This document shows positions 7,615 through 44,778 of a DNA stretch of 64,000 bases, piece by piece. Numbering within the stretch: position 1 is the first letter of the stretch; each line of letters opens with the position of its first letter. The position numbers and the translations under genes were made by a program. A model generated the notes under the pieces. It did not search any database. It saw only the letters and a program-made list of their open reading frames with translations, and had not been told where the DNA came from. This DNA is from Cellvibrio sp. PSBB023 (lineage in GTDB: Bacteria > Pseudomonadota > Gammaproteobacteria > Pseudomonadales > Cellvibrionaceae): assembly GCF_002007605.1 (NCBI RefSeq), contig NZ_CP019799.1:2356001-2420000 (forward strand). Direction: 5' to 3'.

Positions 7615-8769
7615 TTACTGTTTTTTACAAACACTTTTATAGGTTTTCGGGGTACAGCCGTATTCCTCTTTAAATAGCTTGTTGAAGTAAGAGGTATTTT
7701 TGTACCCCACTGACCCGGCAATTTCCCCAACATTAGCCTCGGGTTTTTCAGCCAGCAAGCGCGCCGCCTCGGTTAAGCGTAACTTGTTCAAATAGCTGAT
7801 AAAGGTATAACCCAGCTCGGACTTGAGGATGTCATTAATCTTGGCTCGGGTGACATTGATCGCCGCCACCATGGTGTCCAGATCCAGCTCAGGGTTGGCA
7901 TACTCGCTCGCCATGTACTGCAAAATGGCGGTCTTCTCCCTATCGCGCAGCGGTGCAATGGATAGCTGCTGGTAAGCCAGCAAAGGTCTGTCGCGCTCCT
8001 GCTTCTGTGCCAGGCTGGCAATCAGGCTGCGGGTATATTGTTTAAATAGCCAGGCCGCAAAAGCACCCCATGCCAGTACCAAAAACACCGCAAAAAAATA
8101 CAGGTAGCGCCAATCGCGCCCGCACAGGGTGACGTTGTTTATCAGTACCGACACCATCTTGTCGGTAGGGGTTTGAAAACTGGAACCAATGGCAATACGC
8201 GGCACTTTATTGAGTTGATATTGCTGGCGCGACAAATCGAGCTGGTGCAGGTCAAACCACCATTGGGGTGTTTCAAGCCGTGAAAGGTCAAGGTTGATAC
8301 GCGACCATACCTCGGTACAGGAAAAAAATGCGCCGGGGGCGCGGTAGCTCCCCAAATCATCGCTCACCGACAACCCTTCCTCCACGGTCCAGGCACTAAA
8401 CACCATGGTATTGGTTAGCGAGCAACGTATATTGAAAGAAATGGAATCGTAGGCGGTTAAATCAATCAGGGTGGGTGCACCGGAGGCATCAACAAACTCA
8501 AGCGCAATTTCAGCATAAGGGTATTGCGCCTGTTTAACGACCGTAAAGTCATAGCTCAGGCTGAATTGCTCATCGTGTATTTTTATCTCAGATGCACCGC
8601 CTTTGTTGGCATCCGTGCGGGTCACCGCCCGCCACAGCATCCCGCTCTGGCCTGCAGGCACCAAAGGTAGATAAAGGTAGGTACGGCTGACGCTGGCATA
8701 ACCCAATAGCAGGCTAACCAATAACAGGCTCATACCACCCATAAAGACTTTGTTATAAAACTCTTGCAT
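7615..8769 (-). CDS. Membrane-anchored AraC-family regulator with periplasmic sensor domain
   Basis: 384 residues. A first membrane helix lies at about 10-28. A periplasmic region of roughly 190 residues follows, rich in beta strands and Trp (VWSRINLDLSRLETPQWWF). A second helix lies at about 222-243 (YFFAVFLVLAWGAFAAWLF). The last 100 residues are an AraC-type DNA-binding domain (LDLDTMVAAINVTRAKIN, then VGEIAGSVGYKNTSYFNKLF). The layout is that of a one-component transmembrane regulator that reads a signal outside the inner membrane. The sensor has the look of a jelly-roll carbohydrate-binding fold (inference). No clear target sits next to it; its neighbours are a hotdog-like protein and a methyltransferase. 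Confidence 0.85.
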   Translation of the reverse strand: MQEFYNKVFMGGMSLLLVSLLLGYASVSRTYLYLPLVPAGQSGMLWRAVTRTDANKGGASEIKIHDEQFSLSYDFTVVKQAQYPYAEIALEFVDASGAPTLIDLTAYDSISFNIRCSLTNTMVFSAWTVEEGLSVSDDLGSYRAPGAFFSCTEVWSRINLDLSRLETPQWWFDLHQLDLSRQQYQLNKVPRIAIGSSFQTPTDKMVSVLINNVTLCGRDWRYLYFFAVFLVLAWGAFAAWLFKQYTRSLIASLAQKQERDRPLLAYQQLSIAPLRDREKTAILQYMASEYANPELDLDTMVAAINVTRAKINDILKSELGYTFISYLNKLRLTEAARLLAEKPEANVGEIAGSVGYKNTSYFNKLFKEEYGCTPKTYKSVCKKQ

Positions 8770-8820
8770 TGTGCCGTGATGACCTCTGACTAAGCATCCA
8801 AGCCCGCCAGTGTACCGCTA

Positions 8821-9477
8821 TCAGTCGTTCAAGGTCACAATCATCAGGCTGCCTTCAAATTTTTTCGGTTGTAGTGCCAGCCAAATCAAATGTTCGGTGG
8901 GCCATTTTTTGTCGCACTTATCGATGAGATCCAAAAATGGCTGGCGCCCCGGGTCAGCCAGTACGAGTTTTTTCACCCCCGCCGATGCCGCGCGCTTGAG
9001 CATGGCAAACCACTCATCGGCCAGCTCATCCCAAAAGCAAATATCGCCCCCGACAATCACATCGTAATTGGCCAGATCTTTCTTTTTCATCTGCTTCATG
9101 GAACAGATTAACTTTTCCACTTTGACCGCATTTAAATCGGCTTGGGCATCCAAAAAGGGAAATACATCGGTATCTACATCCATGCCCGTCACCTTGCAGC
9201 CTTGGCGTGCAAAGAAAATCGACGTAGGCCCCCAACCGCAACCCACATCCAGCACCCGTGTATTTTTACGTGGGCGATGCTCACTGAAATAATCCATTAG
9301 CAGATAACTGGAATCCCAATGGCGATCGCCATGAACACTGGGCGCTACACGTTTTTTGATTTTTTTAAGGGTGGGATTTTTGTCGGTAAACAACCACACA
9401 CCATAGGCACTCAATGTGTGTTTAACCGGAGGGGCGATAAGTTCAGGCACGATGAATCCTTTATTGGCAATACGCAT
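8821..9477 (-). CDS. Class I SAM-dependent methyltransferase (Nnt1/METTL-like)
   Basis: 218 residues from the ATG at 9477; the frame stays open to an ATG at 9516 and a GTG at 9525, so the start is uncertain. Motif I is clear (VLDVGCGWGPTSIFFARQG), followed by the acidic ribose-binding MDVDTDVF and motif IV NYDVIVGGDICFW. The order resembles lysine or nicotinamide N-methyltransferase-like proteins (Methyltransf_16 group). Substrate is unknown. It is downstream of no obvious operon partner. Confidence 0.8.
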   Translation of the reverse strand: MRIANKGFIVPELIAPPVKHTLSAYGVWLFTDKNPTLKKIKKRVAPSVHGDRHWDSSYLLMDYFSEHRPRKNTRVLDVGCGWGPTSIFFARQGCKVTGMDVDTDVFPFLDAQADLNAVKVEKLICSMKQMKKKDLANYDVIVGGDICFWDELADEWFAMLKRAASAGVKKLVLADPGRQPFLDLIDKCDKKWPTEHLIWLALQPKKFEGSLMIVTLND

Positions 9478-19268: not shown

Positions 19269-20978
19269 TTAATTGGTTGTATAGGCAGCCATTTTTACTT
19301 TCAAGACAACCGGACGATCGCTAAAGTTTAAACCCCAGTCAGTTTGATCGCCATTCCACACCCGAGACATAATCCATTTACCATCTTGATAGCGCCCCTC
19401 TTCAACACGGTCGATCATGTATTTTTTATTGGCGAGCTCTTTGGAAGGCTTAAATTCCACTCGCGCTTTGTGTGCTGTTACCAGATATTCGTTATCACTT
19501 AATTGCACGACCAGAGCACCGCCAGCGGCAGGATTATTGCCTTCCGGTGGAGCAATCCAAAACATCGGGCGCCCATAAGTCACTTCTATATCCCACAAAC
19601 CGGCATCCACCACTTGGGTTAAGGCTGCGGCTTTATCTTTCGCATGCTGTTCTTTTTCGGCAGGCGTAGCCTCAGCATTCCAAATTTTTTGTGTATCACC
19701 CGTGGTATCAAGCGGCTCTGCAAAACCCCAACGGTTATTTTCAAATAACAACCTGGCCCAATCGCGCATCATCGGAGAAATAGCGCGGTAGTGCTGTGCA
19801 AAATGCTCGATAGTTTCATCGTTATACTCTTTAGCACCCAAGGGATAGTTAGTGTAACCCGTGTCATCCATACCAAAAGGTGAAAAACCAATGCCACCCA
19901 AACCTAATGTGGAATAAAAATAGCGAGCATAGGGTTGATCGTTACCAATCTCTGCAACAAACAACGCGTTGTCATCACGCGCATAAAGCTCCAACACTTT
20001 GGATACGGTTTTGTGATCGCGGAAATAAATATCCGGGCCAATTAAATCAATGGCAGGCGCTGCCACTTTCCAGATATGCAATACATTATCAGTCGCACCG
20101 CCACTGGAATATTGACCGGGCAAACCGGGGTTGAACGGATTGCGCAACGCAACATTGACATACATCGGCAGGTTCTTGATCGCTTTACCTGTTTGAGCGA
20201 TTTCATTGCAGTATTTAGCAATGTAATAGGCGTGAAAAAACTCATCGGCATCTTTACCAAATACCTGCGCCCAGCTACCACTTTTTAGTTTCAATTGTTG
20301 GATTAAGTCTGCCGGTACTTGCGCAGTGAAATATTGTTGTGCCAACGCGGAAAAATCGCGCACAGATTGATAGGTGCCAACTTCGTTCTGCACTTGCACC
20401 ATAATTACTGTGTGATCTTTATCAGTTTTTTTCAGGTGCTTCATCAATTCTACAAAGGCTTTTTTATCGGCCTCCAAGGTATTCTTACCTAATGGCGACA
20501 TTGAATTCAGTGTGTCGCCATCCTGTTTTACTACGCGAGGAAAACGCGCGTTATCCAACTTCACCCAGGCTGGCGCGTAGTGCGGTGCATTATTTTTCCA
20601 GGTGGCAAACCAAAGCAGCACCACTTTTACATCGCGCTCACGCGCTTGTTTAATTAATACATCCACATAAGAAAAATCAAACTTGCCCTCTGTTGGTTCA
20701 ATCTGCTCCCACGCTACCGGAATACTTAAGGTATTCGCGTGCATTTTTTCTACCGAAGGCCATACGTCTTTTAATGCATCCGGGTAGTTGCTGGAATTAT
20801 TGGTTTGCGCACCCAGTATTAAATAGGGAGCACCGTCCACCATCAGCGCATGGCGGCCATGCTTACTTACTAATTCAGGCAATGGCGCAGCAGCACACAG
20901 TGGCAGTGCAACGAATAGCAGTAGCGAGGTGGTAATACAACGCCCTAAGCGCAAACAAAATAGAGTAGCGATTGACAT
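19269..20978 (-). CDS. GH35 beta-galactosidase (DUF5597 type), probably xyloglucan-active
   Basis: 569 residues with a signal peptide ending near CAAAPLP. It is a GH35 enzyme with the C-terminal DUF5597 beta domain. The acid/base Glu is E199 in VQVQNEVGTY and the nucleophile is E343 in FVAEIGND. It closely resembles in layout the Bgl35A enzyme of the Cellvibrio japonicus xyloglucan locus, which removes galactose from xyloglucan side chains; the present gene has the same GH95 and TonB receptor neighbours. A terminator upstream (21081-21113) separates it from the receptor gene, so it needs its own promoter in the 100 bases before its ATG. Confidence 0.88.
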   Translation of the reverse strand: MSIATLFCLRLGRCITTSLLLFVALPLCAAAPLPELVSKHGRHALMVDGAPYLILGAQTNNSSNYPDALKDVWPSVEKMHANTLSIPVAWEQIEPTEGKFDFSYVDVLIKQARERDVKVVLLWFATWKNNAPHYAPAWVKLDNARFPRVVKQDGDTLNSMSPLGKNTLEADKKAFVELMKHLKKTDKDHTVIMVQVQNEVGTYQSVRDFSALAQQYFTAQVPADLIQQLKLKSGSWAQVFGKDADEFFHAYYIAKYCNEIAQTGKAIKNLPMYVNVALRNPFNPGLPGQYSSGGATDNVLHIWKVAAPAIDLIGPDIYFRDHKTVSKVLELYARDDNALFVAEIGNDQPYARYFYSTLGLGGIGFSPFGMDDTGYTNYPLGAKEYNDETIEHFAQHYRAISPMMRDWARLLFENNRWGFAEPLDTTGDTQKIWNAEATPAEKEQHAKDKAAALTQVVDAGLWDIEVTYGRPMFWIAPPEGNNPAAGGALVVQLSDNEYLVTAHKARVEFKPSKELANKKYMIDRVEEGRYQDGKWIMSRVWNGDQTDWGLNFSDRPVVLKVKMAAYTTN

Positions 20979-21125: not shown

Positions 21126-24046
21126 TTAAAATCTGGCGCGGATACCAACTGCAAAACGAGCATCTTGCGAGTAAGAGTAAGCAATGTGATCGCCAGCACC
21201 ATTTTGATCGATGATACCAACGGTTTTCTCTTTCAGCAGATTACTTGCTTCTGCAGTAATAGTGTAATTATCAAGGAAGGTATAGCTAACCGATGCATCC
21301 AACTGACCATAGTCATCGTTATATACAGGGATACGAGCCTTACCACCTAATCCATCATTAAAGTCTGGATCAAAACCATTACCCCCCAAGTAATCAAGTA
21401 TTTACTGCGCCATGAGTAAGCCAAGCGAGCAGAAAAACTGTCTTTCTCATACATCCCAATAATATTGAATGCATTTTTTGACAGCTGATCAATTGGCAAT
21501 TGGCCATAAGCCGAACGATCAGTATCTACAGGCGCTGCACCTGCTACAGTATCACCACCGACAGGTTGGGTATTCAATGGAATATCCGCCTTACTATCGA
21601 TGTAGGTGTAGTTAGCTTGTATACCCAAACCATCAAATGGTGCAGGTAACTGGTCAAAGAATTTATTGACGCCGATTTCTAAACCATTGATATCTCCACT
21701 ACCCACATTGTCCAACCAGGTAGCTTGACCAGTGTAGTTGCCAATTGCGTAGGGTTCCGCTGTTTTCTTAAAGAAGCCTTCGACTTGTTTGTTAAACAGC
21801 GCTGCATAAGCCATACCACCGTTCGAATCGAAATACCACTCAACAGACAAGTCGAACTGTGTCGCTTCCATGGGTTTGAGATATGGGTTGGTATCCTGAT
21901 TCAGGTTAAAGCCTTTGATCACACCGGTTTCATTATCGATATCAGCACTTACCGTTACTTTGGCTTGCATATCGGAGAAAGATGGATTCCAGATAGCTTC
22001 CGATGCAGCAAAACGAACAAACACATCTTCACTCGCTTGCAAACGCAAGTTAAAGCTTGGCAATACGTGAGTATTGTCGGTTTTGGCATCTAGCGGCGTT
22101 ACTGAACGAGGTATAACCTCTACACCATCAACAGTCGCTCGGTTAACGATAAAAGAACCTGAAGCAGTCATATCGGTTTGTACCACACGCACACCGATAT
22201 TACCGTCGATTGGCATTGCCAGATCATCAAATCCATAATTGGTCATGATGTACATCGCCACGGTTTTTTCGTCTTGATAGTTTCTGTACTCTGGATTATC
22301 CAAACGAGTCCAATCAGAATATACGCTGTCTGCACACCACCACGCGCCATCAGTTTCACAATCGGCATTGACCGCGTCGGTTGTTGCTCGGAAATTTCTG
22401 GCTGCCTCGGAAGAATACAAATAACCCGTTGCCGGAACAGTAACATCACCGCGCTGGAAATCACCAAACGAATATAAAGTCAGGTAATTTTCTGCTTGCT
22501 CTGGTGTCACCTTGGGGATTGAGTTTTTATCAAATCCAAACCAAGTAGCGTAACGGGTATTCCAATCGTAGTCGGTGTTAGTGTTGTCACCCGTTTTCTC
22601 TGAATATCTGACACCCGCTTTTACCGATTTAATGACTGCACCATTAAAATCGTATTCTGCATCAAAGCGTGCTGTTTTCGCATCTGCTTCGTTACGCTCA
22701 AAGTGAGTCATCGCTTGGCCAAGGTTGTAATTGGCGAAGTTAGACATATACGCTTCATCGATTATGATAGAAGGCTTTTCAGTACCAATCCCTTCCATTC
22801 GAGCTTCAGCAGGAATCACTTTCAAGCCCAAGGTATAATCATCAACTCTCGCTTCTGCTTTTATGTACTGTAAATCGGCAGAAAATTTCCAGTAGTCATC
22901 AGGTGACCATTTTATACCGGTAGCATAGTCAGTCGTTTTGGAAACATTTTGTGCCCAGCGGGTACTGGTACCAAAATCCAGCCCCCATTGCGCAGGATTA
23001 GCAACGGTAACAGTGCCTGATTCCATTGCGCCATTTCCGCTGTAAACCCAATCATTATCCGCGGTAGGTACTAATGCCTGATCGCCATTGCCGCCTTCAA
23101 GGAAAAAAGCATTTTCATCATACACGTTGTCATGTTTTGTTTGAAAAGCAGTGAAATAAAGCTCCGTGCTTTCATTAGGCGCCCATTGCAATGCAAGGTA
23201 ACCACCTTCACGAGTGCTTTCATGGTCGTTGCGACGCCAATCCACACCTTTGGAAACCCAAACATCATCGCCATTAATAGTTCTTGGCATATAAGCTCGG
23301 GAATACACTTGGTCTGAGCGCGTAGACAAATCAGAGGTAGAAGCGTTGACGAGGATACCAAATTCACCGGCATCAGTTTCCCAACGATTGCTGTACAAAC
23401 CGGAATATTCACCGTTTGTTTCTTTAATTTGATCACCATAGTTAGCTTTCGCAGAAACGCTAACTAATTGGCCATCTGAATCAAACGGCATACGGGTGCG
23501 CAGGTTTACTGTACCGCCCAAACCACCTTCAATCATATCTGCCGATGGGCTTTTATAAGTATCAACCGCATACATCAATTCAGCAGGTACCGATTCAAAG
23601 CTTAAACCACGGCCACTTGCAGCGGAGAATACATCACGCCCATTTAATTCGGCACGAACTTGTGTCAAACCACGAACAGCAACGCCACTACCCTCTGCTG
23701 CAGGGTGTTCCGCATCGTTGTTGGTATAACGACCTACAGTTACACCTGGAACACGCTGCAGTGCTTCAGTTACGCTGCGATCCGGTAATTTACCGATATC
23801 TTCTGCAACGATTGAGTCTACGACCACATTCGCATTTCTTTTTACATCTTGTGCAGATTGAATACTCGCACGCTGGCCAGTAACAATCACTTCTTCCAAT
23901 CCGTCGGCGCTATTTTGCGCGTAAGTGTGCGATGCCACGCCCATGGCACCGACAACCAGCGATACGCTGGATGCTAATTTGATATACGTTGGTAATTGTT
24001 TTTTTAGGAATTTTTTTCCAAGGTTGTGCTTATTGTTGGATGTCAT
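21126..24046 (-). CDS. TonB-dependent outer-membrane receptor, frameshifted near its C-terminus
   Basis: About 973 residues if one base is restored. A signal peptide, then the plug domain (EEVIVTGQRASIQSAQDV, IVAEDIGKLPDRSVTEALQRVPGV) and a long beta barrel of the Xanthomonas/Caulobacter-type TonB receptor family. The frame breaks at a run of six G (minus strand; 21382-21387). Upstream it reads AYSWRSKYLITWG and stops at 21347 after missense residues. In the next frame the barrel goes on with GFDPDFNDGLGGKARIPVYN and ends in the canonical GIRARF at 21126. Seven G (or four) would restore one frame. It lies 38 bases after the GH95 gene and has a GGAG site. It probably imports xyloglucan oligosaccharides. 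Confidence 0.88.
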
Positions 24047-24084: not shown

Positions 24085-26493
24085 CTATCTCCCGCTGCTG
24101 GATAAGAGATAAATACCCTCTCCCTGTGCCATAAAACTCCCTGAATTCCCGTTGCTCTCTAGCGTCAGGATTTTCCCGTGCTTTGCGTCCTCCAGCGTTA
24201 AACCCGCTGCAGGACGCGAAGTTCTGATGTAAATTTTTTGTGCATGCTGTGAGCGAATGCGCGCCTGCGTTAATTCGCCTTTTTGCCATTGCAGATCTAC
24301 TTCTATACCTCCGCGCGCGCGTAAACCGGTGACGGAGCCCTTGGGCCAACTGGCGGGTAATGCAGGCAATAAATGCAATTCGTCGCCGTGGCTTTGCACT
24401 AACATTTCAGCAATGCCGGCGCTCGCACCAAAATTGCCATCAATTTGAAAGGGGGGATGGTTATCCCACAAATTGCTCAGGGTGCTGCGCTGTAATTGCT
24501 CACCCAACACTTTGTGTGCACGATTGCCGTCCAATAACCGCGCCCACATATTTACTTTCCAGGCTTGTGACCAACCAGTACCGCCATCGCCACGGGCATT
24601 CAAGGTGTTACGTGCGGCGGTGAGTAATTCCGGTGTTTGGTGCGCGCTAATATCGCGTCCCGGGTGCAAAGCAAATAAATGGGAGATATGGCGATGTTCA
24701 TTTTTAGGATCGTCAATATCTTCTTTCCACTCTTGTAATTGTCCCCAGCTGCCGATGCGAATACCGCGATCAAGCTGTGCTAACTTTTCTTGCAGGGCTT
24801 GTGCAAATTTTTTATCGCCTGAGAGCTGTGCGGCTTCGTGAGTATTGCGCAGTAAATCAAACACAATTTGCTGTGACATGGCCGCCGCACGAGTGAAAGG
24901 GCCGTGCTCTGGTGAGAAGCTTGGCGATACAATCCATTTGCCATCGCGCGGATCTTTTACCAAAAACGCCAACCAAAATTCACTCGCACTTTTCATTAAG
25001 GGATAAGCGCGATTGCGCAAGAAACGCTTATCGCCAGAAAACAAATAATGCTCGTAATAATGCTGTGCGAGCCAAGCCGCTGCTTCGGGCTGCCAAAATG
25101 CGGTGGGCCAGTCGATTACACCGGTAAAGCCCCAAATATTGGTATTGAGAAACAGCGTCCATCCTTTATCCGCGCCGGCCACTTTTTTGGCGGCAATCGT
25201 GCCCGGTACTACCAGACTGTCAACAAAATCAAAAAAAGGCTCAATCAATTCCGGCAAGTTGGTGGTTTCGGCCAGCCAGTAATTCATTTGCAAATTGATG
25301 TTGACGTGATAGTCAGCATTCCATGGCGGCGTAGTGGAGTTATTCCACACGCCCTGCAAATTGGCAGGCAATGAACCGGGACGCGAGGAAGCGATCAGCA
25401 GGTAGCGGCCAAACTGAAAGTAGGTTGCCTCTAATGTGCGATCCAATACGGCATCACCTTTTTTGTAACCCGCCAGCAATTGCGATGTGGTTAGCGATTG
25501 CGGTTTTTGCCCTATATCCAGCGCGACACGATTGAACAGGGCTTGATAGTCAGCCCGGTGTACTGCCTGTAACTGTGCAAAGGTTTTTTTACTCGCCTTG
25601 GTAATATTGTTGTGCAACCGTTTGTGTGGATGCACGCCGCGATATTGTGGATAGGACTGGGCGTAGTCAGTGCCCGCCGCGAGTAAAATCACCACCGAAT
25701 CAGCGGCAGTGATTTGAATTTTATTCCCCTCGATAACCCTTAATTCACCGCCCTGATTAAGCAATTGAATTTGGGTTTCAAACTGCAAACCATTACTGTG
25801 CAACTTGCCGCTGGCGGTAATGCGCCCCTGCTTGATGGCGACATTTAAATCGCGATTGTCAGGCACTTGCAGACTTGCAGTGAACGAAATGCTGGCGGGT
25901 TGATCTGCCGAATATTTAACAGCGATTACACCATCGGGATAACTGGCAAGGTACTCACGGCGATACTGCACACCACCCTGTTCATAGCTGACCGTGACTT
26001 GGGCATCACCAAGGGATAACTCACGGCGATAGCGGCTGACATCGCTGTCATTTTTGTTTGATTCAATGATCAGGTCGCCGAATGTTTGGTAGTCGCCATA
26101 GGCACTGATTTTGTGGCCCAACAATTTGGCAGCCGCTTCCGGGGTAATCGAACCCTCGGTGTTGATGGTGTTTCTAACTGCTGCAATGGCATCGCCTTGG
26201 GCTTTTTCCGGCCAGCCAAAATCGTATCCCGCCGCGCCAGGGCCACCGGTCCACAAGGTTTTTTCATTGAATTGGATCAGGTCACGCGCAACTCCACCGG
26301 CAATCACTGCGCCCAAGGCACCATTACCAATAGGCAAACCTTCGCGCTCCCAATCTGACGCGGGAGCATCAAACCAGATGGATGCCGACTCTGCCGCCTG
26401 CAACGGCAAGGCACCAAACGTCACTAGCAGCACCATAGAGGCACCGACAGCGCGCAGACCAGATTGCACAGCAGCAGAGATTGGAAGAATCAT
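24085..26493 (-). CDS. GH95 alpha-L-fucosidase
   Basis: 802 residues with a signal peptide (cleavage near LQAAES). Family GH95 features run through the protein: [22 protein letters not shown] and [11 protein letters not shown] at the start, the Asn-rich NVNLQMNYW in the barrel, SPSFSPEHG, which holds the probable general acid Glu, and [17 protein letters not shown] near the end. It would remove alpha-1,2-fucose from xyloglucan side chains, as Afc95A does in Cellvibrio japonicus. It is followed by the TonB receptor after 38 bases. The ATG has no clear ribosome site. A 220-base spacer with palindromes separates it from the halogenase. Confidence 0.92.
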
Positions 26494-26586
26494 GGAGAAA
26501 GTGACAGCCTTTATATGGTAGATATGACTATATGAAACAATGTTAAGGTAATGTTTTTATCGGTGCAAGTTTTATCACCTATAACA

Positions 26587-26614
26587 AAAATGGCACCATT
26601 TTCGTGCTACGAAA
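26587..26614. promoter_or_regulatory. Two overlapping palindromes upstream of GH95, possible operator
   Basis: AAAATGG/CCATTTT with a two-base centre (26587-26602) runs into TTTCGT/ACGAAA with a three-base centre (26600-26614). The pair lies about 100 bases before the fucosidase ATG and about 100 bases after the halogenase stop. It has no T run fitting a terminator. An operator for a sugar-responsive repressor is plausible but unproven. Confidence 0.4.
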
Positions 26615-26716
26615 GGAAACATTTTGGCGACAAAGCAGTACCAAACCAGTAAGTTTTGCAACGCTATAGCGCCTTGACAGATGGGTAGTTGATGTATGGG
26701 TGGAACCCGGAGCAAA

Positions 26717-28204
26717 TCAGGACTCCAGAGTTTGCAGGAACTCGGCATGGGACGGCGCGTAATCACGCCCCTTGCCGACAGCAGCACGCATTTTATCCAT
26801 GACCGCCTGCATTTTGCCGGGCTCCGGTGATGGCGTAAGCCCTGTTGGATTGACGGCAAAACCGGCAAACATACTGATCCAGCTATGCTCGGTAAAGGAC
26901 TCAATTTCCAGCAGTTGGATATCGCCAAAAGCCTTGAATGTCGCGATTTTCTCTTCCAATGTCGCCGGAATTTCCATGTCTCGCACATGCTGCCACAGCG
27001 GTTCCGTGCGGCCATTCAGCTTGTAGTGCAGGATAATAAAATCGCGGATGCGCTCATACTCCAAGCGATTGAGGCGGTTAGCCTCGGCGACCTGTTTTTC
27101 CTGAATTTCGTAGTCCACCAGAAATGCCACAAGCTTGTTAATACCGGTTTGGATAAGCGAAATACTGGTCGATTCCAAAGGTTCCAGGAACCCACTGGAC
27201 AAACCAATCGCGACACAGTTTTTGTGCCAGAAATCCTGGCGCATACCGGTGGTAAAGCGGATTAAACGCGGTTCTGTCACCCGCTCGCCCCTGAGATTGG
27301 CACGCAGCTCTGCACGCGCCTGATCTTCCGTTATAAATTGGCTGGAAAACACATAGCCATTACCCACCCGATGCTGCAACGGAATATGCCACTGCCAGCC
27401 CGCCGTGCGCGCCGTTGAACGGGTAAATGGGTCTGGCTCGGCAACCGATTGGGTCTGTACTGCCAGCGCGGAATCACTCAATAACCACTGGCTCCAGTCC
27501 TCATACCCCACCCCCAGGGTTTTGCCGATCAGCAGTGCGCTAATCCCCGAGCAGTCCACAAATAAATCCCCGCTGATCTGCTCACCGGATTCCAGATGCA
27601 ATGAGTGGATAAAGCCGCTATCGGGGTCAAGTTGAACCTGATTGATTTTGCCTTCAATGCGTTTGACCCGACGCGCTTCCGCATAGCCACGCAGGTATTT
27701 CGCAAACAATGTGGCATCAAAGTGATAAGCGTAGTTGTACCAGGCCAAGCGGCTGTCCGGGTCAAAACTGGGTTGGGCAAACCTGCCCGCCTTGGCCAAT
27801 TGTGTGCACAAGCAGAACTCGGCTAATGCAGCGCTGTAGCCCTGCTGTTTTGCCGCCCACCAGGTTTTGTGAAACGGGCGATCCTCTATGGGCACACCAT
27901 ACCCGGCAAAGGGATGAAAAAAGGATTGATTCGGCGCAACCCAGTTTTCAAACTCGATTCCCAGCTTGAAGGTCGCGTTAGTCGCCTTGATAAATTCACT
28001 TTCCCTGATGTTTAAATCCTTAATAAATTGGTGGATTCCCGGCACAGTTGCCTCCCCCACCCCCACGGTTCCGATCAATTCCGACTCGACCAGTGTGACC
28101 CGAATATTGGTATTTCCCAGCCAATTGGCCAGATAGGCAGCAGTCATCCAACCGGCGGTACCACCACCAGCAATCACAATATGAGAAACAGGCTTGGATG
28201 ACAT
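26717..28204 (-). CDS. Flavin-dependent tryptophan-halogenase family protein
   Basis: 495 residues from the ATG at 28204, which has GGGAG eight bases upstream. All family marks are present: the FAD-binding GGGTAGWM (13-20), VGVGEATVPGI, the catalytic Lys as K80 in NATFKLG, the WxWxIP motif as WQWHIP (270-275), and the Glu as E344 in EPLESTSI. In PrnA-type enzymes the Lys and Glu position hypohalous acid and substrate. The natural substrate is unknown; similar genes often sit beside TonB receptors in polysaccharide loci. It heads the gene group halogenase-GH95-receptor on the minus strand. A partner flavin reductase is not seen in the window. Confidence 0.9.
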   Translation of the reverse strand: MSSKPVSHIVIAGGGTAGWMTAAYLANWLGNTNIRVTLVESELIGTVGVGEATVPGIHQFIKDLNIRESEFIKATNATFKLGIEFENWVAPNQSFFHPFAGYGVPIEDRPFHKTWWAAKQQGYSAALAEFCLCTQLAKAGRFAQPSFDPDSRLAWYNYAYHFDATLFAKYLRGYAEARRVKRIEGKINQVQLDPDSGFIHSLHLESGEQISGDLFVDCSGISALLIGKTLGVGYEDWSQWLLSDSALAVQTQSVAEPDPFTRSTARTAGWQWHIPLQHRVGNGYVFSSQFITEDQARAELRANLRGERVTEPRLIRFTTGMRQDFWHKNCVAIGLSSGFLEPLESTSISLIQTGINKLVAFLVDYEIQEKQVAEANRLNRLEYERIRDFIILHYKLNGRTEPLWQHVRDMEIPATLEEKIATFKAFGDIQLLEIESFTEHSWISMFAGFAVNPTGLTPSPEPGKMQAVMDKMRAAVGKGRDYAPSHAEFLQTLES

Positions 28205-28458
28205 AGACACAACTCCCGGCTCATAGTCTGGTCACTATAGCCCTCAATTATTATTGTCATTTAGACCAGATCACTAAGCTTAAGCTGACTTTTTTATTGG
28301 CACAATATTTATCATCTGTGCAAAACCCTATTTTTGTAACTGGCACGGCTGTTGCCAATGTTTAGGCTAGAGATCTGGCAATCGTCATGTGCAGGTTTTC
28401 TGATGCGCCAAAATGCACCGGAATCCCCACAACTCCCTGAAAAGAGCGGTAGAACAAA

Positions 28459-30806: not shown

Positions 30807-31169
30807 CTAGTAGCTCTCGCCCAGGCGCTCCACCAAACTGCGAATGGACTGCACCGCTTGCGCCGACACATCGATAATGGAAAAACCAATCCAGTGCTTG
30901 CCGGATAAATCTGCGGCGCGCGTCCACAAACAATCTACCCCCAACTGAATCACCATCTGGTCATTGACCGGCTCAGGCAAGTGCAGATCCAGGGTGTAGA
31001 GACGATCCTCTTCCAGCAGCACATCGCCCATCACCATCAAACCTTGGGCATGGATGTTAACGAGCCGGCCGACGTACAAATCGCGCAGGCTGTCATAGAC
31101 ATCCACATCGCCATTAATGATGTGGCGCTCCAGTTCGCGATCGTGCTCCCGGGTACAGTCGTGGGTCAT
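30807..31169 (-). CDS. PilZ-domain protein, probable c-di-GMP effector
   Basis: 120 residues. RELER (11-15) fits the RxxxR c-di-GMP-binding motif and NIHAQG (38-43) fits D/N-x-S-x-x-G except for His in place of Ser. Beta strands follow in the usual order (LYTLDLHLPE, IQLGVDCLWTR, HWIGFSIIDVSAQ). Its ATG overlaps the stop of the DUF1631 gene by four bases (ATGA), so the two are co-translated and probably act together. Binding of c-di-GMP is likely but the Ser change could weaken it. Confidence 0.8.
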   Translation of the reverse strand: MTHDCTREHDRELERHIINGDVDVYDSLRDLYVGRLVNIHAQGLMVMGDVLLEEDRLYTLDLHLPEPVNDQMVIQLGVDCLWTRAADLSGKHWIGFSIIDVSAQAVQSIRSLVERLGESY

Positions 31170-33610
31170 GATGCAGCCCCCGTTTTGAGGTTATCCGCCC
31201 GCTCGTTAAGGGTGTGATAAATATTTTCCAGCGCGCGTTCAAAGAAGGGCTTGGTGCTGCCGGCAATAATTTTGGCGCGACCGGCAATCATATCGCGTGC
31301 CAATTGCAAACCCGCCGCCAGCGATACCTTGCGCCCCTGCTGATCCACCAGCATGTAGTGCTGGGTCTTTTTGTTGTACCAAGCCACTTTCAGGCGCTTG
31401 CCGCCATCAAACTCAAACCAGGTACCAAATTCCACCATTTTCAGGCTATCGACAATTTTGGCTTCTTCGGTGGATACAGGTTGCTGCTGGGCGCTGCTGT
31501 GACCAGCTTTTTCTGCCGCCAACAACTCCAACTTGCTGCGCATAGGCGCCGGTGCCGGTTCCGCCTTGCGGCTGAGCAGTGCCATACGCTGTAGCGATGC
31601 TACCGCATCCAGCAATTTGCGGCCCTTGGCCTGTTCGTAGCCAATGGTTTCAAAGCCGCGCTCCAACAGGTTGCGCAGCGGTTCCTGAAGCTCCATTTGC
31701 GCCACCTTGTCCTGCTGGGTGGTTTTAGGCTCCAGCGACCACAACAAATCATCAATCGCCTTGAGTGCACGCGCCCAACTTTCGGATTTATCGCCGTAGC
31801 GCAACAACACAAACGACAGGTAATCCGACCAAGGCTGTAGCAACAGCAACAGGATCGCCGATGGCATCTCGCGGTTGTCGGTGCGGCTGCGCACCTCGTG
31901 ATTCACTTGCAGTTTGGCCTCGCGCAGTTTTTCCTCGCCCTGGGCTTTTTCCAGCGCGCGACGCTCCATCAACTCCTGCCGGCGCGCCACGTTATTGGTG
32001 TAGGCATTAAACTCGATCAACAGCTCGGCAAAGATACGCACGTCATTTTTAAATTCGTGCAACAGGCGGAATACGGTAGTTTTGATCTTGGTGAAAATAT
32101 CGTACTGATCACTGCCATCATTACTGACCCAGCGCACACCTGCTTCGGCCAAACTATTGAGCAACACCCGAGCAGGATGCTCCGGCTGCTCAAAAAACCC
32201 TTTATCGATAAAGGCGATTTTCAAAAAAGGCGTATGCAAATAACTGAGCAGTGCTTTGACTGAATCGGGCAAATGATCATCAGACAGCATGTACTCAAAC
32301 AACATACCGACCAGGTCGATGGTCTGCATATCGCTCGCTTCCACCGCGCCATTTACATTCTCGCTGGCAATCTGCTGCATCATCTGGCGACTGACATCTG
32401 CCACGGTTTGCACCGGAATCGCCACCGGACCGGAATCGTGATCGGCCAAAGCCTGTTGACTCAGGTGATAGGCTTGCCCTTGCATCTGCTCCAGCACTCC
32501 AACCAATTGGTTGCTGTTATAGACCTGCAACTGGGTGGGCGGGGTATTGGGTGTTGCGGCCACCGGTGCATTGGCTGGCGCTGAGTTGGCAGCTGGCGCG
32601 CCGCCCTGGGCAATGGTGCCCGTGAAACCACTGGCCTGAATCGCAGGCATTAATTGGGTGACATGGGTTTGCAGCAGCCGAATCGCATTTAACAGGCTGT
32701 TTTGGTACTGGATATCATTGGGGTTGAGCGCACCACTGAGCAACTTGTCGCTCGCGCGGCGCTGATGTTGTTGCGCATCAAGCGCCTGCTGCTGTAATTC
32801 GGCCTCGGTTTGATGCTGTTCAAAAGGGCCGTCCTGGATAGCCTCTTCGCGCACCGGCTCGGACTTTTCCTGAGCCACCACAAACCGCAGGTTGGGCAGT
32901 AAATTCTGGCGGATCAAATAATCGTTCAGCTCATCGTAAAGCTCACCCAGCATGCCAATCACATCCTGATCAAACAGCTTGTAACCGATGATTTTGGTTT
33001 TGACATCCACATCCAGATTGGTCAACACCTTGCGCAGCGCTTCGCAGAATTGCACCGGGCTGGCAGGGTTAGTGCGCTCGTCGATCTTTTCGCCATCATT
33101 CAGCAGCGCCAAACGCTGTTGTAACGCCCAGAGACTCTCTGCAAAAAAGTTATCGGCGCGATGGGTAATAGAGGTGATTGCAATCGTCTCTTCCAGATCC
33201 GAATGCTCAACCAGCGAGAGAATATCGCCGCTGAAGCGTTCCTCACCGGTCAGGGTATTGAGGGATTTGTTCTTGAACTTTACGTAACCATTGGCGAGAT
33301 GCTGGCAAAACTCCTGCTCTGCCGCCTGCTGCACCGCATTTAACAGGTTCTGGATTTCATAGAGCGCGACTTGATCCTTATTGGATTTGGCCTGCTCGGC
33401 AACCTCCAAAATCTGCTTACACCACTCGCGCCAGAAATTGGGAAAAACACGATAAGCAAAGCCGCGCGTTAAATCGCGGCAATGTTTTAAATACTCGATG
33501 GTCAGTTGTTCTGACATCGCAACGGTGGAGTATTGCGACGATTTGGGAGCATCGGCGCCGGGCAAACCTGAGTTTTGCATAATGGTTCCGTACTTATCCA
33601 TGAGATTCAT
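31166..33610 (-). CDS. DUF1631 family protein (first copy)
   Basis: 814 residues from the ATG at 33610; an ATG at 33601 and an in-frame TTG at 33706 are alternatives. DUF1631 proteins are large, helical and cytosolic, sometimes misnamed thymidine phosphorylase. Typical segments are DLVGMLFEYMLSDDHLPDSV, KALLSYLHTPFLKIAFIDKGFF and HPARVLLNSLAEAG. The C-terminal GTWFEFDGGKRLKVAWYNK looks like a small beta domain related to PilZ-type barrels (inference). A close paralogue lies at 42244-44778. The stop overlaps the PilZ gene. A role in surface motility or c-di-GMP signalling is suggested by neighbours only. Confidence 0.85.
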   Translation of the reverse strand: MNLMDKYGTIMQNSGLPGADAPKSSQYSTVAMSEQLTIEYLKHCRDLTRGFAYRVFPNFWREWCKQILEVAEQAKSNKDQVALYEIQNLLNAVQQAAEQEFCQHLANGYVKFKNKSLNTLTGEERFSGDILSLVEHSDLEETIAITSITHRADNFFAESLWALQQRLALLNDGEKIDERTNPASPVQFCEALRKVLTNLDVDVKTKIIGYKLFDQDVIGMLGELYDELNDYLIRQNLLPNLRFVVAQEKSEPVREEAIQDGPFEQHQTEAELQQQALDAQQHQRRASDKLLSGALNPNDIQYQNSLLNAIRLLQTHVTQLMPAIQASGFTGTIAQGGAPAANSAPANAPVAATPNTPPTQLQVYNSNQLVGVLEQMQGQAYHLSQQALADHDSGPVAIPVQTVADVSRQMMQQIASENVNGAVEASDMQTIDLVGMLFEYMLSDDHLPDSVKALLSYLHTPFLKIAFIDKGFFEQPEHPARVLLNSLAEAGVRWVSNDGSDQYDIFTKIKTTVFRLLHEFKNDVRIFAELLIEFNAYTNNVARRQELMERRALEKAQGEEKLREAKLQVNHEVRSRTDNREMPSAILLLLLQPWSDYLSFVLLRYGDKSESWARALKAIDDLLWSLEPKTTQQDKVAQMELQEPLRNLLERGFETIGYEQAKGRKLLDAVASLQRMALLSRKAEPAPAPMRSKLELLAAEKAGHSSAQQQPVSTEEAKIVDSLKMVEFGTWFEFDGGKRLKVAWYNKKTQHYMLVDQQGRKVSLAAGLQLARDMIAGRAKIIAGSTKPFFERALENIYHTLNERADNLKTGAAS

Positions 33611-34022
33611 GTTCCTTAGACCCTGTCTCTGAAGACCCAGATCAGGGGCCAGTTCGAACCTAAAGAGCAGACGTTTCTGCCGGTAAAAGGTTATCTTGAA
33701 CGCCAATATTAACAGCTTGCGCTACTTGTTTCACAGAATAGCGCGGCTTTAAGCCCTCAGCGAGCAAAAAATAATCGATTGTGACAAATGCCCGTCAGGC
33801 ACCATTACGGCGCATTTCATACCCTGCCAACCGCCGCCACCGCACCAAAAGCGATCACCGCGTTTACCAGCACCATCTCCCGTATCACTACTCAACAAGC
33901 GACAACGCGCGCCACGCCAGCCTCTAGCCGCCCATCACCACAATTGGCACTTATATTGCGATACACAGGTTGAAATAACTGACTCGCACTCTGGGCGATC
34001 TGGCTATTCACACAATTTGCTA
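33611..34022. other. Intergenic region between DUF1631 and the guanidine riboswitch
   Basis: About 400 bases without a supported gene. It must hold the DUF1631 promoter (minus) and the promoter of the guanidine operon (plus). Short frames on both strands have no ribosome site or family pattern. No clear -35/-10 could be fixed by eye. Confidence 0.4.
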
Positions 34023-42243: not shown

Positions 42244-44778
42244 TTAACTTAAACTACGTTGATCGCGCAAACTGCTTATCACCGACTCCAAGGCACGATC
42301 AAATAACATACCATCATCCAAAATGGTTAATCGTTTGGTTTGCAATGCAATTGCCAAACTTTCGCGGCTTTCTTCTGCCACTTTCATTCCTGAGCGGTTA
42401 ACAAAAATATATTTACCCACGGAACGAATAATCGCTGCCAGACGGCAGCGGTATTTTTCGCCCGCCTCACCTTGCATTTCAAACCAGGTGCCTTGGGTAA
42501 TATTGTTCACCAGCGCTAAATGCTGTGCATCTGCCGCTATAGTGTGTGTAACCGGCTCTGCCACAATGCCTTGCGCAATATCAGCAACAGTATCTTGCGG
42601 CAGCACAGTTGCATCAACCGCCGGCACAGCTTCATTAGCAGAGGCTGCTGGCTCAGTTGAATCCGCAACAGGCGATTGATTGTCTGCAATATCATTTACC
42701 ACAGAGGTAGGTACTTGAGTGGCAACAGCTACAACAGATGGTTTCATCTGCGCATCAGCCATTGCCGCTTTCATACTGGCAGCTTTAGCCGCTATTTGTT
42801 GCGCCCTGATTGCACTGTCGCTGCCTGTATTGTTATTGACTGCGCTTTTATTTTCTTCACCTTTATTCCCTGCATCGTCATTTCCCGAGCTTGGTTGAGC
42901 AGCTCCCGCAGCAACAGACTTCGCATCACCACGCAACCGCTCCAAATGAACGGTTTCCAATTGTTTAAACAGATTGCCGGTTTCAAATGGGCTAAATGAA
43001 ATGCTCTCCAATCCAGTACGCAATTTTTGCAGTAATTCCGGCACCAGCTTCAGTAACTTTTGGCGATTGTCCTTATCCATGGGCGCGACAACACTCCACA
43101 CCAATTGCTGCGCGGTCAGCGAGCAACTGCGCCATTCATCGCTATCGACACCTTGCTTCAAGGAGGTGATGAACATGACGTTCGCCCAGGCCTCACGCAA
43201 CAATTTGGTAACGGCCAAGGGCAAATCACGGCCGACAGTAATACGGTTCAACTCAGCATCCACCTGCGCACGAGCACGTTCGGATTTTGCTTTACCGTCT
43301 TCCGCATCAATCGTGCGTTGCTCAAGGATAGAAGCGCGACGCTTTTCTTTATCCAGATAAGAACGGAAGTCCAGCAGTAACCGATCAAACAAACTGATAT
43401 CAGTATCAAATTCAGAGAGAATGGTTTGCACCACTTCTTCCATTTTGGCGAAGAGCGTATCTTTACGCTGATTCTCATCCGTAGGTTCTTGCCACCCCAA
43501 GCACGCCATCGCCATTTCGTTCAGCAAACGACGGGCAGGATGGCCACCTTTACTGAAAAAGGTTTTATCGGCAATCGCCACTTTAACCATCGGAATTTGC
43601 AAACGGCCAATCAAGACTTTCATTGGCGCCGCCAAGTTGCGGTCATCCAAAATAAATTCAAACATCATGCTCACCAGGTTGATGACATCATCATCAACCT
43701 GATTAATCGCCGCCGCCGTTTGTGTTTCATTGCGCAGCAACTCGGTCAGGAATCCGCGCAAGTTGGCTGGCTGGGTACTATTGGCAGCAGCGGTATTCTG
43801 TTGCTGCGCCAGCGAGAGAATTTTGATCAGGTCTTTGCTATTGATCTCCTCCCCCGGCATTGATTGGCTGGACGAAGAACGTTGGGAGCCCAACAGATTG
43901 CGCAACTGGTGCAATACCTGATTGGTTTGCTCATCATAACTTTGCAGGCCACCGGCCATATTGCCTTGCAACTCAGCCGTTAAGCCTTGGCCAAAATGAT
44001 CCGCACTATTAGTAGCAGTTGAAGGGGAAATAATGGGGCGCTTTGCCTGACGTAATTCCGATTTCAGCGAAGGCAAAATATTGGCATCAATCAGCGTTTG
44101 ATTAAGTGCCTCAAACAACTTGCCCAACTTGCTCATCATGATGTTGTCAAAAATCTTGAACATCACCAACTTGGCTTTCAAGTCGATACTGAGTGTAGCC
44201 GTTGCATCGGTAAAGGCATTGCAAATTACATCGACACCCAAGGGGTTATTTTTTTGGTACACCTTGGTGGGCACCAAATGATCAATACGCAAGGTCAGAT
44301 GCTGGATCAGTTCGGCAAATTGCTCATTGGCTTTGCTAACCATACTTTCAACCGCAACCATCTCCTCCAGCTCGTCATTTTTGACGATGGTGAGTTCATC
44401 CAGGGAGACTGTCTTTTCCGTCAGGCGTTTTTCATCCTTATAAGCCGTAGGGTCCAGCAGGCGGGCAAAACCTATATCGATGGTGCGAAAGAAGGCGTTT
44501 TCGATAGCGCGGCGACGGATGCGAACCTCGCGCATGGAGTCGAAGAAAATGTTTTGATCCTGATTATTGTTGGCCTTGTCCGCCAACTCAAACATAGCGT
44601 CATCGATTCGATCAAACAGCTCGCGCAAATAGGTCTGCAACTGCTGGCGAGCCTTATCGCGCAGCGCGTGAATCGGCGCAGGCAGACGTGCCAATACAAC
44701 AGCCTGATTTGCCCCCGATGACCGATCAGGGTTCAGCTGCACAACCTTGTTGGAATCGGATTTTGTTTGTTCGTTCAT
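42244..44778 (-). CDS. DUF1631 family protein (second copy)
   Basis: 844 residues. Same architecture as the copy at 31166-33610: a helical N-terminal half, DVINLVSMMFEFILDDRNLAAPM and VLIGRLQIPMVKVAIADKTFF in the middle, HPARRLLNEMAMACLGW, and a C-terminal GTWFEMQGEAGEKYRCRLAA beta domain followed by a short helix pair. An Ala/Val/Thr-rich linker of about 130 residues precedes that domain. In Pseudomonas a gene of this family also lies beside nadC and the pil genes, as here. It is divergent from nadC. Biochemical role unknown. Confidence 0.87.
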   Translation of the reverse strand: MNEQTKSDSNKVVQLNPDRSSGANQAVVLARLPAPIHALRDKARQQLQTYLRELFDRIDDAMFELADKANNNQDQNIFFDSMREVRIRRRAIENAFFRTIDIGFARLLDPTAYKDEKRLTEKTVSLDELTIVKNDELEEMVAVESMVSKANEQFAELIQHLTLRIDHLVPTKVYQKNNPLGVDVICNAFTDATATLSIDLKAKLVMFKIFDNIMMSKLGKLFEALNQTLIDANILPSLKSELRQAKRPIISPSTATNSADHFGQGLTAELQGNMAGGLQSYDEQTNQVLHQLRNLLGSQRSSSSQSMPGEEINSKDLIKILSLAQQQNTAAANSTQPANLRGFLTELLRNETQTAAAINQVDDDVINLVSMMFEFILDDRNLAAPMKVLIGRLQIPMVKVAIADKTFFSKGGHPARRLLNEMAMACLGWQEPTDENQRKDTLFAKMEEVVQTILSEFDTDISLFDRLLLDFRSYLDKEKRRASILEQRTIDAEDGKAKSERARAQVDAELNRITVGRDLPLAVTKLLREAWANVMFITSLKQGVDSDEWRSCSLTAQQLVWSVVAPMDKDNRQKLLKLVPELLQKLRTGLESISFSPFETGNLFKQLETVHLERLRGDAKSVAAGAAQPSSGNDDAGNKGEENKSAVNNNTGSDSAIRAQQIAAKAASMKAAMADAQMKPSVVAVATQVPTSVVNDIADNQSPVADSTEPAASANEAVPAVDATVLPQDTVADIAQGIVAEPVTHTIAADAQHLALVNNITQGTWFEMQGEAGEKYRCRLAAIIRSVGKYIFVNRSGMKVAEESRESLAIALQTKRLTILDDGMLFDRALESVISSLRDQRSLS

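Follow-up and report, generated by a model that had tools for sequence, protein, structure and literature searches.

A putative BrvH/Xcc4156-type flavin-dependent halogenase gene upstream of a xyloglucan-type locus in Cellvibrio sp. PSBB023, and the association of such genes with TIGR01782 receptors

Known halogenases and the HAL protein

BrvH of Brevundimonas sp. BAL3 (PDB 6frl) and Xcc4156 of Xanthomonas campestris (PDB 6y1w) are flavin-dependent halogenases which, according to the available parts of the papers describing them, are inactive on free tryptophan but active on indole, and have an open site with an accessible lysine for which a MibH-like peptide substrate was proposed (PMC7336383, PMC5945002). 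Substrate loops are described as missing from both (PMC7336383). BrvH brominates; its turnover of indole is low and its authors doubt that indole is the natural substrate, which their paper gives as unknown (PMC5945002), and for Xcc4156 there is a peptide hypothesis only (PMC7336383). Here we analysed a gene probably of the same kind, designated HAL, which lies at 26717..28204 on the minus strand of a 64,000-nucleotide stretch of Cellvibrio sp. PSBB023 (the window, i.e. the whole stretch of DNA that was analysed; contig NZ_CP019799.1, positions 2,356,001 to 2,420,000). The activity of BrvH is known, whereas HAL is known from its sequence and a structural model.

The HAL open reading frame (ORF) codes for 495 amino acids from its ATG, which is the most frequent length among the closest relatives; a GTG two codons upstream is an alternative start (26717-28210, minus strand), and the plus strand over this region is interrupted by stops. 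An earlier note, made from the sequence of the window, had described an intact set of halogenase motifs, and all were found, K80 and E344 at the positions given there. The protein matches Pfam Trp_halogenase with 573.8 bits, its FAD motif is GGGTAG (fitting GxGxxG), it carries WQWHIP (fitting WxWxIP), and its catalytic lysine and glutamate are K80 and E344 (ATG numbering; K82 and E346 if counted from the GTG). K80, E344, W270, W272, I274 and P275 are invariant across an alignment of 39 sequences. The model has the box-and-pyramid fold of Trp-type halogenases; the protein begins at the FAD domain, and no export signal was seen on inspection by eye. The same note had remarked that no flavin reductase gene is nearby, which also holds: PF01613 has three matches in the genome and none within the window, the nearest being ~184 kb off.

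In the alignment derived from the structural model, BrvH is 47% identical to HAL, and the fewest alignment columns among the 50 structure matches listed were required by 6frl, 6y1w and 9luq. The free-tryptophan halogenases PrnA, RebH and PyrH have the fold and catalytic residues of HAL but are about 30-35% identical to it. The alignments listed for them run over 509-541 columns where BrvH takes 496, which agrees with the lack of substrate loops described for BrvH and Xcc4156. Likewise, phmmer alignments of HAL end near residue 427-435 for PrnA and RebH, 461-463 for PyrH and SttH, and 495 for BrvH. The genes for PrnA, RebH and PyrH sit in biosynthetic clusters. MibH, a lanthipeptide tryptophan halogenase (5uao), is 28% identical to HAL; unlike in the MibH system, no precursor-peptide ORF common to the loci was found at the HAL locus. 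Weak NCBIfam matches of HAL are to QhpG (5.7e-9) and LodB (3.5e-5), both far under cut-off, and to the halogenase CmlS (1.8e-6). QhpG, a peptidyl-tryptophan dihydroxylase, is described in the available part of its paper as a flavoenzyme that dihydroxylates protein tryptophan in the cytoplasm (PMC7876137); it is both a precedent for protein-tryptophan chemistry by an FAD enzyme and a weak sequence match, albeit a sub-threshold one.

HAL seems to be under purifying selection like its locus neighbours, since its median ratio of non-synonymous to synonymous substitution rates (dN/dS, rough NG86 estimates) is 0.079 (18 pairs), close to 0.082 for the receptor, 0.076 for GH35 and 0.106 for GH95; these values are approximate, as only pairs with dS <3 were used (18 of 120 for HAL), dS approaches saturation, and pieces of a broken receptor (G017) and a GH35 with gaps (G010) are among the sequences compared. 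HAL is a real, conserved and probably active halogenase of a known structural kind.

Halogenases, TIGR01782 receptors and associated oxygenases

Clustering gave 18 halogenase genes in the PSBB023 genome (of 23 Trp_halogenase matches, 4 from three other FAD proteins were excluded, and a frameshifted gene with two matches was counted once by its larger piece). Sixteen of these 18 lie within 3 kb of a TonB-dependent receptor (TBDT) of the TIGR01782 class, 15 on the same strand (chance per gene 0.062, binomial P = 6e-18). A halogenase neighbour was found for 13/29 TIGR01782 receptors versus 0/32 other plug-domain receptors. The enzymes encoded near the halogenases of this genome are diverse: RGL11, GH18, alpha-amylase, GH3, GH16, GH20 and GH9. 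Since halogenases stand beside unrelated sugar enzymes and one class of receptor, what these sites have in common is the receptor rather than the sugar; the link of HAL to xyloglucan is positional, and the robust link is to the TIGR01782 class. A second receptor-side halogenase of the genome is split across two frames (L049:9613-11117).

The association was also seen beyond this genome. Among 187 genomes drawn evenly from the class, in each of which up to 8 halogenase and up to 4 receptor candidates were scored, 10 have a halogenase (E up to 1e-80), 9 a TIGR01782 receptor (E up to 1e-90) and 6 both (one-sided Fisher P = 3e-7; 4e-6 omitting the PSBB023 genome). In the four genomes with a halogenase only, all halogenase matches score 376-424 bits. 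Across five other genomes, 11 of the 17 listed halogenases have a listed receptor within 5 kb, although the receptors scored were limited to the 4 best candidates of each genome. On a receptor tree of 35 rows, made by a quick method, the presence of a halogenase changes 7 times against 11.8 after shuffling, and 2/500 shuffles were as low; the label is clustered, near-copies contribute to this, and some long branches are unsure.

Other proteins recur in these gene groups. The genome has six SapC genes, four of them beside halogenases, and other halogenase operons also add Cupin_8 and DUF6445. In Alteromonadaceae bacterium BrNp21-10 (L169), genes for a TBDT, SapC, Cupin_8, a halogenase and DUF6445 stand in a row, followed by an alpha-galactosidase and a second TBDT; in another locus (L177:1380-3605), halogenase and DUF6445 are fused into one protein of 741 amino acids adjoining Cupin_8 and SapC. 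A relative of Xcc4156 is likewise found within a SapC-Cupin_8-halogenase run (L178), and HAL differs from it in having no SapC or Cupin_8 neighbour. The best structure matches of the Cupin_8 protein are FIH (6.9e-23) and JMJD5, which are protein hydroxylases; C2orf60, which we take to be a tRNA hydroxylase, is also in the match list. Pfam lists the function of DUF6445 as unknown. Its invariant residues include H111, D113 and H205 (31 of the 120 listed relatives aligned), and the model of one DUF6445 protein (pLDDT 91.6) gave nine PDB matches (E up to 0.001, TM about 0.4-0.5), namely 2-oxoglutarate oxygenase chains (HygX, collagen prolyl 3-hydroxylase and ColD) and one uncharacterised protein. 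Judged from this model, DUF6445 (L169:9445-10194, L039:8472-9158 and L048:7762-8472) looks like a 2-oxoglutarate Fe(II) oxygenase.

Of 183 halogenase-like ORFs, 17 are without both the catalytic lysine and glutamate (e.g. L040:8458-10068, and L072:4803-6254 and 7807-9282). Where looked at, they stand in tandem with intact copies, with an overlap of 4 bases in L072, and they are possible pseudo-enzyme partners. One further halogenase (L179:1029-3767) is fused to a 400-amino-acid N-terminal region with CxxC motifs and adjoins a radical-SAM-like protein; it may be a peptide-natural-product halogenase.

The xyloglucan-type locus and its control block

As the earlier note had stated, HAL lies directly before a fucosidase and a TonB receptor gene on the same strand. 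A domain match assigns the former (24085..26493, minus strand) to GH95 (alpha-L-fucosidase type), and its orthologues adjoin HAL in 16 genomes. The receptor, 2670 b from HAL, is a TIGR01782 TBDT (profile match, 583.8 bits) in an 899-amino-acid frame shortened by a frameshift (21347..24046, minus strand). Next comes GH35/DUF5597 (19269..20978, minus strand), by domain match and orthology the counterpart of C. japonicus Bgl35A. GH95, TBDT and GH35 stand in the order of the C. japonicus xyloglucan utilization locus (PMC4285296). Bgl35A itself is encoded in one of the genomes (G002), with no difference across 540 aligned residues, and hence the characterised C. japonicus locus has HAL upstream too (73% identity to the PSBB023 protein). 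In the available parts of the paper on that locus, four genes are reported as induced 12- to 45-fold, xyloglucan fragments as cut in the periplasm and the sensing proteins as unknown (PMC4285296). The word halogenase is absent from its available main text and from that of a paper on a Xanthomonas xyloglucan locus (PMC8245568), and no paper describing a halogenase next to a TBDT or within a polysaccharide locus turned up among the titles and abstract beginnings listed for open-licence papers.

HAL has matches in 21/21 Cellvibrio genomes, 7 to 29 apiece (E up to 0.001). An orthologue more than 70% identical is present in 13 of them (PSBB023 counted) and one of ~54% identity (down to about 53%) in 3 more. 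In these 16/21 genomes HAL is directly upstream of GH95 and the TBDT, followed by GH35 in 15/16, the contig of the sixteenth ending before it. Because this order is kept in 16 of the 21 genomes of the genus, the position of HAL beside GH95 and the TBDT is not due to chance.

In PSBB023 the receptor frame ends at 899 amino acids, while orthologues have 969-998 and 14/15 are without an internal stop; a six-G run at 21382-21387 adjoins the frameshift, and the C-terminal part of the barrel is encoded in another frame (21129..21335, minus strand; profile match to TIGR01782 positions 803-868). The frameshift may stem from the assembly or be a genuine mutation. In C. japonicus a GH31 alpha-xylosidase gene lies beside GH35, whereas in PSBB023 the gene after GH35 codes for a transglycosylase on the opposite strand, and the C. 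japonicus GH31 protein gave no match in the whole genome (a weak negative, as the search had no positive control). The use of xyloglucan by PSBB023 is therefore uncertain. Elsewhere in the window, DUF1631 proteins at 31166-33706 and 42244-44778 flank genes for an NMT1-like binding protein, DUF1989 and a biotin carboxylase/carboxyltransferase, a group that looks like one for urea use.

The 223-bp gap between HAL and GH95 (26494..26716, minus strand) holds a conserved promoter-like block, seen in 15 aligned orthologous loci, which ends in ATAGTCATATATACCATAT. Within it, conservation marks an operator-like element (26514..26531, minus strand) with 1 mismatch to ATAGTCATATATACCATA and the core ATAGTCAT. 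The core occurs in 15/15 loci with HAL; in one set of shuffled DNA no 8-mer reached more than 4. The 18-mer element has two matches in the genome at up to 2 mismatches, the better one at the GH95 site, and one match in the window at up to 3 mismatches. The number of 8-mers kept in at least 9 of the 15 loci is 19 in the HAL-GH95 gap (which spans 148 to 390 bp among loci), 10 between GH95 and the TBDT, 5 between the TBDT and GH35, and 0 upstream of HAL; none is shared between these regions. A sigma-70 consensus scan found two promoter-like sites versus 2.0 expected and none in the HAL-GH95 gap, so that the label 'promoter' comes from conservation alone. An operator shared by HAL and the sugar genes was rejected for the sole conserved element found, which precedes GH95 and not HAL. 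With a conserved block before GH95 and none upstream of HAL, the sugar genes seem to have their own control point, and HAL does not seem to be just the leading gene of a xyloglucan operon. A xyloglucan regulator could act at this element.

In two genomes, G008 and G004, GH95 and the TBDT occur without HAL, in flanks that resemble the other loci by eye, and in both a GH10 gene occupies the position of HAL (L073:10905-12041 and L074:4803-5957). G008 also has GH35, GH31 and the exact core; the 20 kb of G004 that were read showed no GH35, and the element there is a diverged form without the exact core. The receptors of these loci average 3.8 standard deviations under the line that relates receptor identity to GH95 identity among loci with HAL (30 pairs, two genomes; the nearer of the two G004 receptors was used). 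The earlier note had placed HAL at the head of a xyloglucan-type uptake locus: a motif-complete halogenase does stand at the edge of one, and a role in sugar or xyloglucan uptake as such is weakened by the position of the operator-like element, by G004 and G008, and by the relatives beside other sugar enzymes.

Possible functions of HAL

The fold, FAD site, catalytic lysine and glutamate, purifying selection and lasting TIGR01782 linkage of HAL are established at the level of sequence and model. From the pairing of the genes, the unrelated sugars, the lack of an export signal by eye and the partners resembling protein hydroxylases, we infer a protein substrate, for which the receptor or an escort is the likeliest candidate; the divergence of the receptors in the two loci without HAL was counted as further support. 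HAL would be a flavin-dependent halogenase that works in the cytoplasm and has an open site like BrvH and Xcc4156. A general reductase would supply its FADH2, and the hypohalous acid that it forms would be handed to the catalytic lysine. An aromatic side chain, with tryptophan the likeliest, would then be halogenated, probably with bromine, in a protein or peptide held at the open surface of the enzyme. The least certain step is that the target may be the partner receptor, or a protein travelling with it, and that the modification takes place in the cytoplasm, ahead of export. A non-diffusible substrate would explain why many receptors have a halogenase of their own, and the extra oxygenases of sister operons (Cupin_8, DUF6445) would work on that target too. 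We put forward this whole reading, modification of a protein aromatic side chain, probably of the receptor or an escort, before export, tentatively and with confidence well short of even. The extended proposal, in which TIGR01782 receptors are tailored before export by a cassette of open-site halogenase, FIH-like Cupin_8, DUF6445 oxygenase and SapC, with the xyloglucan HAL as a one-enzyme version, is doubtful. We know of no precedent for halogenation of an outer-membrane receptor or escort protein.

Several observations weigh against a receptor-directed enzyme. In PSBB023 the receptor is broken and HAL intact, and SapC, Cupin_8 and DUF6445 are absent from the genes of the HAL locus, the six SapC genes being elsewhere. 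Many 2-oxoglutarate oxygenases take small molecules, including the top DUF6445 match, HygX. No such partner exists for 16/29 TIGR01782 receptors and 2/18 halogenases of the genome, and in the class sample 3/9 receptor genomes are without a halogenase and 4/10 halogenase genomes without a receptor. A receptor lies within 3 kb in only 43/78 named loci (from the best 80 of 138 relatives), on the same strand in 31, and eight of these 43 represent the HAL locus in other Cellvibrio; strict contiguity is found in 39/78 (21 on the same strand), a count distorted by spurious ORFs, including at loci with a receptor within 200 bp. No aromatic marker of halogenase-linked receptors was found; three columns differ by at least 0.4, the best being W879 (11/13 versus 5/16). 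Halogenase and receptor co-vary weakly across the paralogous pairs (Mantel r = 0.24, P = 0.064 with 11 usable pairs among 13 linked receptors, two receptors sharing one halogenase and one halogenase being broken; r = 0.35, P = 0.029 for the 8 pairs with the closer halogenase type). The contrast with loci lacking HAL is probably a single event.

HAL might instead halogenate a small aromatic (indole or a plant phenolic) that serves as a signal, a competitor-directed compound or an imported nutrient. BrvH and Xcc4156 act on free indole and its derivatives, and PrnA and RebH, which use free tryptophan, have the same fold. However, the low indole turnover of BrvH and the doubts of its authors speak against this, no biosynthetic neighbours were seen among the genes of the locus, and 16 halogenase genes beside 13 receptors and varied sugar enzymes would be redundant for one diffusible product; we regard it as possible but rather doubtful. 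Of the targets suggested in the earlier note, an aromatic compound linked to plant cell walls is the weakest, given the lack of an export signal by eye and the cutting of xyloglucan fragments in the periplasm; nor is it supported, as halogenases stand beside alpha-amylase, GH18, GH3/GH16 and GH20 genes besides those for RGL11 and xyloglucan.

It is quite unlikely that HAL has lost its halogenase role in the cell and oxidises or hydroxylates protein tryptophan as QhpG does, or has another flavin function. The sub-cut-off matches to QhpG and LodB and the catalytically dead relatives in tandem arrays would fit such a change, but the remaining weak match is to a halogenase, and HAL keeps the lysine, glutamate and WxWxIP that are invariant in all 39 aligned sequences and shares 47% identity with an enzyme that brominates. 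Similarly improbable is that HAL is a mere bystander from a large paralogous family, having come to lie next to the xyloglucan genes without contributing to their use. The promoter-like block that splits it from GH95, the variable length of that gap and the two genomes with GH95 and the receptor alone would fit such a history; against it, the order is kept in 16 genomes at HAL identities down to about 53%, and random landing does not explain 16/18 halogenase genes beside one class of receptor.

For halogenases of the BrvH/Xcc4156 kind, this analysis provides a recurrent genomic partner, the TIGR01782 receptor class, and C. japonicus is a genetically tractable host with a halogenase at a characterised locus for which mutants are known. 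If the receptor is indeed the target, bacteria that break down plant matter would modify proteins of their outer membrane by halogenation or oxidation.
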